Of a stretch of 64,000 nucleotides of DNA, positions 26,772 through 40,252 are shown one piece after another; the stretch's first letter is position 1; each line of letters starts with the position of its first letter. Origin of the DNA: Opitutaceae bacterium (lineage in GTDB: Bacteria; Verrucomicrobiota; Verrucomicrobiia; Opitutales; Opitutaceae); NCBI GenBank assembly GCA_028284235.1, contig JANQSC010000020.1, positions 62,001 to 126,000 on the forward strand, written 5' to 3'. Made by a program: the position numbers and the translations under genes. The notes beneath the pieces are model-generated. The model was not told the DNA's origin. It was given only the letters and a program-made list of their open reading frames with translations, and did not search any database.

Positions 26772-26975
26772 TCAAGTCTCGCCGCCGAGCTCGAAGCTGA
26801 TCTTCCCTTCGATAATCTCGCGCAAGGCGATATCTTCCGGGTTCAACTTCTCCAGCGACTCCACGAGCGGCCGATTGCCGTGGCGCAGCTGCTTGACGCG
26901 GCGCGACACGACATTGATCAAAATGTTCGGGTCGGTGATGACCTTGCGGGCTTCTTTAATGTAATCGTCTCTCAA
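26772..26975 (-). CDS. rpoZ: RNA polymerase subunit omega
   Basis: 67 residues. The segment 'ILINVVSRRVKQLRHGNRPL' followed by 'PEDIALREIIEGKIS' matches the conserved omega core, in which the helix with paired Arg/Lys residues and the 'ALREI-EG-I' motif embrace the beta' C-terminus and help polymerase assembly. The short length is normal. Its promoter must lie between this gene and cutA, in or beside the 161-bp foldback element that ends about 70 bases before the ATG. Confidence 0.88.
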   Translation of the reverse strand: MRDDYIKEARKVITDPNILINVVSRRVKQLRHGNRPLVESLEKLNPEDIALREIIEGKISFELGGET

Positions 26976-27046
26976 AGCGAACTCTCCTTTTGCTAAGTGG
27001 AATCCTGCCTTTTACCTTGAAGCCCTAATGGGTCAAGCGATTATTA

Positions 27047-27207
27047 GGCCGCTTGGACGAATTCCGGAACGAGTCGAATCGAGGACATTTTGAGACGAAA
27101 GTGCGGGTTTCGACCTGAGCAATATTGAAATATTGCGAGGGGAGAAAACGCGATTTCGACCAAAATGAACCGATCTCGACGACATGAGTGAATTCGCCCA
27201 TGCGGCC
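27047..27207. mobile_element. 161-bp foldback (MITE-like) element
   Basis: Ends are GGCCGCTTGGACGAATTC and, inverted, GGCCGCATGGGCGAATTC (16 of 18 identical). The palindrome continues inward with CATTTTG and CGAAA blocks and meets in GCAATATT-GAAATATTGC, centred at 27127, exactly midway between the ends. It carries no coding capacity. A relic of one end is at 40222. Likely a non-autonomous transposon or REP-like hairpin element. Confidence 0.7.
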
Positions 27208-27222
27208 ACAACCAATCGATCT

Positions 27223-27603
27223 ATGACCGATCCGCAACACTCTCAACCGGCCTCCGACGCGACCCTTTACACCTGCTGGACAACGGTCCCCACCGAATCG
27301 GACGCCCAGCGGATCGCCCAGGCGCTCGTCGACGAGCAGATCGCCGCCTGCGTGCAAATCGACAGTCCCATCCAATCCGTCTACCTCTGGGAAGGCGAGC
27401 GACAGAGCTCCGAGGAGTACCGCCTTTGGATCAAGACCCTGGCCCCTCTGAAAACCGCCGCCCGGGAACGCGTGCGCGCCCTCCACCCCTACGACACGCC
27501 GCAGTGGATAGAAATCCGGTCCGCGGAAGTCGACGAAAAGTACTTGAAATGGGCGAAAGAAGCGTCCAACTTACGCGGCTTTCCAAATTCGGAACCCATT
27601 TAA
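27223..27603 (+). CDS. cutA: divalent-cation tolerance protein CutA
   Basis: 126 residues from ATG 27223. The CutA trimer fold is recognised by 'YTCWTTVPTESDAQRIAQAL', 'QIAACVQIDSPIQSVYLWEG' and 'LHPYDTPQWIEI'. CutA proteins are linked to copper tolerance and to a PII-like structural role; the precise function is not settled. An in-frame ATG at 27184 adds 13 residues, but that codon lies inside the right end of the foldback element, so I prefer 27223. Neither has an obvious Shine-Dalgarno. The small basic protein gene follows 6 bases after the stop. Confidence 0.88.
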   Translation: MTDPQHSQPASDATLYTCWTTVPTESDAQRIAQALVDEQIAACVQIDSPIQSVYLWEGERQSSEEYRLWIKTLAPLKTAARERVRALHPYDTPQWIEIRSAEVDEKYLKWAKEASNLRGFPNSEPI

Positions 27604-39850: not shown

Positions 39851-40222
39851 ATGGACCAAAAACGACTCGACCAGCTCCTCCATCAGCGCGCCCTCATCCA
39901 AGAGCACCTGATTTGGCTAGACGCCGAAATCGACGCCCTGCAGGCGAAAGGGTCGTCGTTCCCGAGCGCCATCCCTCCCAATCGACTCGAGGAACTCGAT
40001 ACCGCCGCGGAAACGTCCGCCAAACCGAAGCTGCTTCCCGAGCCCGCGCCCGCTCCCGATCCGGATCCGAACCCCGCCCACGCGATCACCGACATCTACG
40101 ACGAACTCGGGCCCAACACCGAGGACTCCGTACAGGACACGCGCAAAGGCTGTTTTCTCATTTTCGGCGCCGCTTGCCTCGCCCTCGCGGCGTTGGTCGC
40201 CTGGATCTGGTTCGCCTACTAG
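39851..40222 (+). CDS. tail-anchored membrane protein of unknown function
   Basis: 123 residues from ATG 39851. The N-terminal helix ('QKRLDQLLHQRALIQEHLIW') is amphipathic, the middle is rich in Pro, Glu and Asp (about 50-85), and the C-terminus is a single membrane segment ending the protein ('GCFLIFGAACLALAALVAWI'). This arrangement leaves the body in the cytoplasm. No family recognised. The stop codon TAG at 40220 merges with a remnant of the foldback element found at 27047. A TTG at 39836 is an alternative start. Confidence 0.6.
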   Translation: MDQKRLDQLLHQRALIQEHLIWLDAEIDALQAKGSSFPSAIPPNRLEELDTAAETSAKPKLLPEPAPAPDPDPNPAHAITDIYDELGPNTEDSVQDTRKGCFLIFGAACLALAALVAWIWFAY

Positions 40223-40252
40223 GCCGCGTGGACAAATTCTGGAACGAGCCGC
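40222..40252. repeat. relic end of the 161-bp foldback element
   Basis: GGCCGCGTGGACAAATTC followed by TGGAACGAGCCG matches the left end of the element at 27047 at about 27 of 31 positions. The similarity ends at the stop codon of the oxidoreductase gene at 40253. The other end and the central palindrome are missing. Confidence 0.55.

Follow-up and report, generated by a model that had tools for sequence, protein, structure and literature searches.

What is the 161-bp foldback that lies between rpoZ and cutA in this Opitutaceae genome, a signal belonging to the two genes or an element that has come from elsewhere? The window (the whole stretch of DNA that was analysed, 64,000 nucleotides) contains it in the spacer of the two divergent genes (Table 1). 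The cutA–rpoZ locus is ordinary; the element family is not.

Table 1. Coordinates of the element, its parts and neighbouring features in the window, and of the fused-tip palindromes at other loci of the own genome
Feature	Position	Strand	Remarks
MITE, 161-bp non-autonomous foldback	27047..27207	+	+ is the best-folding strand across the family
Left tip (terminal repeat)	27047..27064	+	GGCCRCGTGGACAAATT type with substitutions
Right tip (terminal repeat)	27190..27207	-	
Left-flank TA, half of a target duplication	27045..27046	.	right flank (27208-27209) is AC
Two facing tandem G-A motifs, 5′ sides	27112..27119	+	element G66A67 and G71A72G73; near-invariant in the superfamily
Two facing tandem G-A motifs, 3′ sides	27137..27143	+	element G91A92 and G96A97
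rpoZ, omega subunit (Pfam RNA_pol_Rpb6)	26772..26975	-	
cutA (Pfam CutA1)	27223..27603	+	presumed start ATG at 27223, 15 bp past the element end
rpoZ promoter-like block (TTGACC, 16 nt, TAAAAG)	27009..27036	-	promoter role suggested by conservation
Fused-tip palindrome	L131 1459-1476		
Fused-tip palindrome	L132 1469-1486		
Fused-tip palindrome	L133 1487-1504		
Fused-tip palindrome	L134 1499-1516		

The two tips, GGCCGCTTGGACGAATTC and GGCCGCATGGGCGAATTC, agree in 16 of 18 positions, and the midpoint of the element falls at 27127. The preliminary description had called the foldback perfectly centred. The centre holds, but not the perfection: 82 of the 161 positions are self-complementary in an ungapped comparison, and the stem is interrupted by internal loops. 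The + strand is predicted to form a single hairpin of 58 pairs at -73.8 kcal/mol. In 200 dinucleotide shuffles the mean is -41.4 kcal/mol (sd 3.5), which gives z = -9.14, and none of the 200 folds as well. The foldback is thus real, and the long hairpin that had been proposed for a transcript is retained as a prediction. The aligned other copies start and end with the same bases as the window copy, small indels aside. Because both end bases are shared, 27047 and 27207 are confirmed independently as the edges of the element.

No transposase gene is present within the 161 bp. The open reading frames that overlap the element are cutA itself and two frames on the antisense strand, 153 and 60 aa long, neither with a Pfam match, so that the element is non-autonomous, as had been suggested. 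The covariance models of Rfam 15 give no match at the window copy at the gathering score, nor on the elements of 13 loci with E up to 1.

The element had also been thought to occupy the place of the rpoZ promoter, and this is not so. An AATAAT-CNCTTGAC-...-TAAAAG block upstream of rpoZ is found in the 10 other genomes of the same genus, and it is undamaged in the window (27009-27045), directly beside the element; from its conservation, the block is presumably the rpoZ promoter. A consensus scan of 26900-27330 returned no sigma-70-type promoter, and a consensus scan close to the window copy no intrinsic terminator. On the strand opposite the rpoZ block, a weak TTGAAG-16-GATTAT pair (27017-27044), read by eye and not among the scan results, may be the cutA promoter. 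With that pair in use, transcription would begin roughly at the element's left edge and the cutA mRNA would have the hairpin as its leader; the window copy might in this way affect cutA. An in-frame ATG occurs at 27184, inside the window copy, and could lengthen CutA by 13 residues.

The element is not restricted to this locus. In the own genome (G000, 6.13 Mb in 81 contigs, 97% complete), a DNA search finds 8 places, the window copy counted, with 77-100% identity (5 on the + strand and 3 on the - strand), and additionally one 31-bp element end. Model R2 gives 24 matches there, with at least 17 distinct places among the matches listed (150 of 1332 candidates were scored, and an opposite-strand match may count separately). 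The DNA of the window copy matches 5 of 57 genomes, all of the same genus, the own genome included. In the 10 other same-genus genomes (G001-G010), there is no element beside rpoZ, and CutA adjoins rpoZ in all ten (with only residues 80-126 in G004 and 12-84 in G009). Further copies and empty orthologous sites, the two things that the preliminary description proposed to look for, are therefore both present. The window element is a MITE. Its insertion in the spacer of cutA and rpoZ would most simply have occurred after the split from the sequenced relatives.

Various other forms accompany the full-length copies. In the window, positions 40222..40248 (+) hold a solo half of a related element, consisting of the tip and about 10 bases of body; it starts at a TAG (40220-40222) that is apparently the stop codon of a gene. 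A second solo half-element (a tip and little body) is found at L048 6641-6671, and no partner end was found near either of the two. The own genome has four 18-bp palindromes, CTAGGCCRCGTGGCCTA(G/A), that correspond to the two outer tips joined through their common CCRCGTGG (Table 1). At least some of them are located at gene stop codons (by eye), and the four look like deletion scars of the element. Two own-genome copies with different tip types, L007 and L312, carry extra sequence of about 30 and 43 bp close to the apex of the hairpin, and these inserts share TGTCTCGCCGTA...GAAGGCGGA. In Pelagicoccus, one copy (L097 4902-6762) is apparently interrupted by an IS110-type element (Pfam DEDD_Tnp_IS110). 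The same element with the same flanks occurs in a MAG labelled Crocinitomicaceae (MED692, L082) and in an Opitutales MAG (L099); the former contig is probably mis-binned. In another family of the order, foldbacks of about 50 bp with the same GGCC tip are present (L018 1501-1552 and L030 from 1501, both in G038).

Most own-genome copies are flanked by CTA...TAG, and a common setting among the copies is a CTAG-like site with TA on both sides. Over 105 copies, with a rough classing of tips, TA, TTA, TAA or TTAA is found on both sides in 71 and none of the four in 34. The duplication varies with the tip class. With GGCC-type tips, TA is duplicated in 14 of 21 copies. With GAG-type tips, TTA or TAA is found in 14 of 26 copies, TA in 1, and none in 11. 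With GGGCGC-type tips, TTAA is found in 2 of 3 copies, the third having AAAA. The other 55 copies, mostly with GG tips and with the window copy among them, have TA in 39 cases and TTA in 1. Target duplications, another feature named in advance as worth a check, thus exist at the copies; the window copy itself is without an intact one (Table 1).

The insertion sites show a marked relation to gene ends. In 43 of 104 copies, an open frame of 100 codons or more has its stop codon completed by the first base of the element. Such completion occurs at offset 0 on 47 of 208 sides (46 TAG and 1 TAA) and, at any other offset within 30 bases, on at most 6. The tetramer CTAG is rare in the window (65 observed vs. 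about 236 expected), and 24 of these 65 serve as such stops, compared with 13 of 177 for ATAG, 14 of 142 for TTAG, and 31 of 353 for GTAG. Since CTAG is scarce and frequently belongs to a TAG stop codon, the target alone could account for the preference. The element would be put into CTAG-like sites with duplication of TA, the TA and the first G of the element would restore the stop, and many copies would come to lie exactly at gene stops. In the 43 stop-codon copies, the better-folding strand is sense in 19 and antisense in 20, with stops on both sides in 4. This near equality does not argue for a fixed cis role in mRNA, and a fixed cis role in 3′ UTRs was dropped for that reason.

The tips point to the enzymes. 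The exact tip TAGGCCRCGTGGACAAATT occurs in 66 contig stretches, chiefly from Pelagicoccus/Opitutales and from Sphingomonadaceae, and several tip pairs flank an IS5-type transposase. The last residues of the transposase (...KFVHAA) are encoded by the tip itself in Sphingobium and others. In Pelagicoccus sp. SDUM812002, two IS-like copies of 874 and 879 bp (L052 and L074) have these tips and interrupted transposase frames. The L074 piece matches DUF4096 and DDE_Tnp_1 (Pfam) as well as NF033580 (NCBIfam), and the Sphingobium piece matches DUF4096 and NF033580 with no DDE_Tnp_1. For these NF033580-type elements of the IS5 family we take IS427-like to be the subgroup label. In the own genome, at its 97% completeness, there are 0 matches to the L074 transposase piece (E up to 1e-8) and 0 to NF033580 (E up to 0.001), which weighs against mobilization by a resident enzyme there.

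Among 29 IS5-type loci, 11 have a match of at least 0.89 to one of 13 tips and 18 fall below it (L273, L277, L283, and L288 are examples), scores of about 0.75-0.78 being the estimated chance level. It follows that a matching MITE is not present for every IS5 element. In L195 (G005, same genus as the window), GAGAGTGTCCAATAAGTC is found at both ends, with 18 and 17 of 18 positions. In L287 and L298 (G480), GAGGGCGTCTAAAAAGTC matches at 18 of 18 and is the tip of the element copies of G480 itself. These three are the IS5-type loci with GAG tips. The GGCC tip, as in L074 and the Sphingobium ISs, is found in L274 (G408). The tip of L281 (G480) is that of a G489 copy, and L284 (G497) shares its tip with the G497 copies, 17 and 15 of 19 positions matching at its two ends. 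At L329 431-591 (L298), a G480 copy is situated between two fragments of one IS5-type transposase, the end of which bears the same tip.

With NF033580-type ISs of the IS5 family, the element shares the terminal repeats and the CTAG-like target with TA or TNA-like ends. Unlike them, it is without a transposase gene, and its body has, by eye, no resemblance to the interiors of the IS elements read. Descent as a deletion derivative of the tip-sharing ISs was dropped, since the similarity stops at the tips (by eye). An IS630/Tc1-mariner parentage, suggested by the TA in CTAG, was dropped as well, because the tip-sharing ISs carry IS5-family transposases. We infer transposition in trans by IS5-type enzymes: NF033580-type transposases, supplied in trans, would recognize the tips of about 18 bp and insert the element.

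The body extends well beyond the genus. Model R1, based on 20 copies that a DNA search or an exact tip match had yielded, matches 18 of 273 genomes of the order, the own genome included, in families f1, f8, f20, f21, f22, and f89 (10 candidates scored per genome). The distant copies come from a structure-aware model, which favors well-paired copies. With 150 candidates scored per genome, R2 matches number 64 in G214, 45 in G480, 24 in G000, 18 in G418, 9 in G257, 8 each in G374, G055, and G489, 5 each in G007 and G481, and 3 each in G497 and G427. In the phylum, where 7 candidates per genome were scored, 11 of 387 genomes have a match with an E value no higher than 1e-4; of these, 3 are outside the order and weak (E 5e-6 to 6e-5), and 2 of those 3 have almost no strand difference. 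Most full-length matches measure 156-165 bp; longer ones have inserts and some matches are partial. One copy, L212 (G490), was left out of the superfamily counts (pairs, strand, duplication, tip, stop codon, and parsimony); it is a good member all the same, with 162 bp, TA on both flanks, -67.1 vs. -47.1 kcal/mol, and the same strand given by a sequence-only HMM.

In this superfamily, the body is recognizable throughout and the tips vary. In the own genome, the 17 places read have three tip types: GGCC (8), GGGCGCTTTGAAAAATTC (2), and GAGACTGTCCAATAAGTC-like (7). Several other copies have identical 18-base tips at both ends. Two G481 copies, L210 and L258, are 97% identical in the body and 44% in the tip; neither has TA on both flanks, and L210 has the same flanks as a third copy, L244. 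This is the best case of a recent tip change. Body identity reaches 0.70 or more in 316 copy pairs, of which 14 have a tip identity of at most 0.60, and the reverse case, tips of at least 0.75 on bodies of at most 0.55, is found in 164 pairs. In G214, a near-uniform set of 9 copies has 15 variable sites, and positions 3, 4, and 9 of the tip are among them at either end. The body between the tips, about 125 bp long, is common to families of the order, with tips that differ and match other IS5-type elements. From the same body under differing IS5-type tips, it follows that the body would outlive any single transposase.

The covariation was evaluated on a MAFFT alignment (A3) of 79 copies, from which L007 and L255 (inserts), L220 (partial), and the G480 copies L248, L251, L252, and L257 were left out. 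Cells with two-sided changes number 834 vs. 250 (sd 17.5) in shuffles, and the covariation score is 0.644 vs. 0.222. Paired cells amount to 89.3%, vs. 65.1% in shuffles and 36-49% in slid controls. A two-sided change is present in 45 of 45 pairs, a count that says little by itself as shuffles give 39.7. In the 20 copies found without the structure-aware model, two-sided changes occur in 21 of 42 pairs. Within the helices, G66 A67 faces G96 A97 and G71 A72 faces G91 A92; these tandems are near-invariant and the neighboring pairs variable. Over 101 copies, the conservation is 95 for G66, 98 for A67, 100 for G71, 90 for A72, 101 for G91, 98 for A92, 94 for G96, and 97 for A97.

The two strands are not equivalent. 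The better-folding strand is the same in 84 of 85 copies. An orientation by the sequence-only HMM agrees in 103 of 103 copies, the 20 copies of the HMM being among those tested, with no hit in 1 further copy; 102 of the 103 sequence-oriented copies fold better on the same strand. Parsimony on a FastTree phylogeny of 101 copies gives 131 WC-to-GU vs. 58 WC-to-AC events, and the same parsimony on the predicted structure of the reverse strand gives 51 vs. 105. As a small control, five Sphingobium elements of one family (GGCC tip, mutually oriented by blastn) were folded; 2 of the 5 are lower on the reference strand, with strand differences of about 7 kcal/mol or less. Covariation beyond shuffles and strand specificity, which together characterize a structured RNA, are both found, and single-stranded DNA would fit them too. 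One defined strand of the body would form a hairpin in which the helices covary and the tandem G-A motifs face each other. The body seems to have been under selection in this folded, single-stranded form, more likely as RNA than as single-stranded DNA.

With the copies, empty sites, duplications, tip matches, covariation, and strand asymmetry all observed directly, the element is very probably a MITE moved in trans by IS5-type enzymes, with a body of about 125 bp that has a strand-specific fold and with varying tips. A more specific proposal is put forward tentatively, at rather less than even chances. The element could be a mobile structured RNA, about 125-160 nt long and with its tandem G-A motifs paired, kept across the order, and perhaps the phylum, by tip changes while riding successive IS5-type transposases. 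The tips would then serve as an expendable vehicle for a conserved passenger, the RNA, which would work on behalf of the element (for example, through binding of a host protein) and not for a neighbor gene.

Somewhat less probable than RNA, at about one chance in four, is that the selected form is single-stranded DNA, such as a lagging-strand hairpin that attracts a protein or makes transposition easier. In DNA, too, tandem G-A pairs and G-T wobbles are stable, and the outcome of the consensus scan at the window copy, with neither promoter nor terminator, is in line with this form, as is the unbiased orientation of the copies relative to genes. IS5-family transposition is not known to involve single-stranded DNA, which counts against it.

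A shade less likely still is an ordinary MITE and nothing more, with a hairpin due to the inverted-repeat ends and to arm-to-arm gene conversion in DNA, and a single strand without a role. Conversion between the arms alone can yield two-sided changes, and a conversion-like patch is visible in the G214 copy L245, with 7 changes over positions 67-75 relative to 8 near-identical copies. The unbiased orientation with respect to neighboring genes fits here also. Two insertions common to G006 and G010 (L219/L331 and L338/L340), with similar flanks, point to no extra constraint after insertion, the element identities being 0.93 and 0.89 vs. 0.85-0.97 for the flanks. Conversion at the DNA level explains the complementarity, yet not the strand asymmetry: The folding of nearly all sequence-oriented copies on the same strand is left unexplained, and so are the excess of GU over AC events, reversed for the structure of the other strand, and the near-invariant G-A facing G-A within variable helices. 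The Sphingobium elements with the GGCC tip, moreover, show no consistent strand sign.

That the foldback is a regulatory RNA of the host, or a cis element belonging to the cutA–rpoZ spacer, is highly improbable. The better-folding orientation would indeed place the hairpin in the cutA leader. However, a single copy conserved in place, which the preliminary description would have taken for such an element, is not what is found: The same place is empty in the ten same-genus genomes, and the many copies elsewhere have other neighbors. Of the label "MITE or REP-like" given earlier, the first half stands on the copy number, the empty sites, the target duplications, and the IS5-type tips. A REP/BIME or REPIN moved by a RAYT transposase is the least probable reading of all, for although the element is palindromic and intergenic, and GTAG-tagged REPs are highly enriched in O. 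terrae according to PMC3733652, it measures about 160 bp rather than 20-40, has target duplications, and shares its tips with IS5-family elements.

The hairpin transcripts of MITEs are already well known, as passages of PMC2229807 and PMC10969869 attest for the bacterial MITEs ERIC/IRU, Correia/NEMIS, RUP, and YPAL. As presented in those passages, these families resemble the present element in their size of about 100-200 bp, the absence of a transposase gene, the terminal repeats, the TA termini (in several families), the long stem-loop if transcribed, and the mobilization in trans by an IS. Unlike what those passages describe, one body extends here over several bacterial families with tips that differ and match various IS5-type elements, and the body has strand-specific covariation and tandem G-A motifs. 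The TIMEs, Tn3-derived inverted-repeat miniature elements (PMC4133298), are likewise, to go by the title, non-autonomous miniature elements that form part of mosaic transposons; by the same title they are Tn3-derived, whereas the element here is of IS5 type. Among the papers found on miniature inverted-repeats and Verrucomicrobia, no title concerns such elements in this order, and the relevant portions of PMC3733652, PMC10969869, and PMC2229807 do not mention a body that persists in several families while its tips differ.

Bacterial MITEs are usually viewed as what remains of a single IS. Here, several families share a gene-less body of near-constant length. The rare CTAG target offers a simple account of precise stop-codon insertion as a by-product. 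If the fold is functional, the element would be a selfish structured nucleic acid whose transposition ends can be exchanged, and it would become testable why MITEs with long hairpins turn up repeatedly in bacteria.
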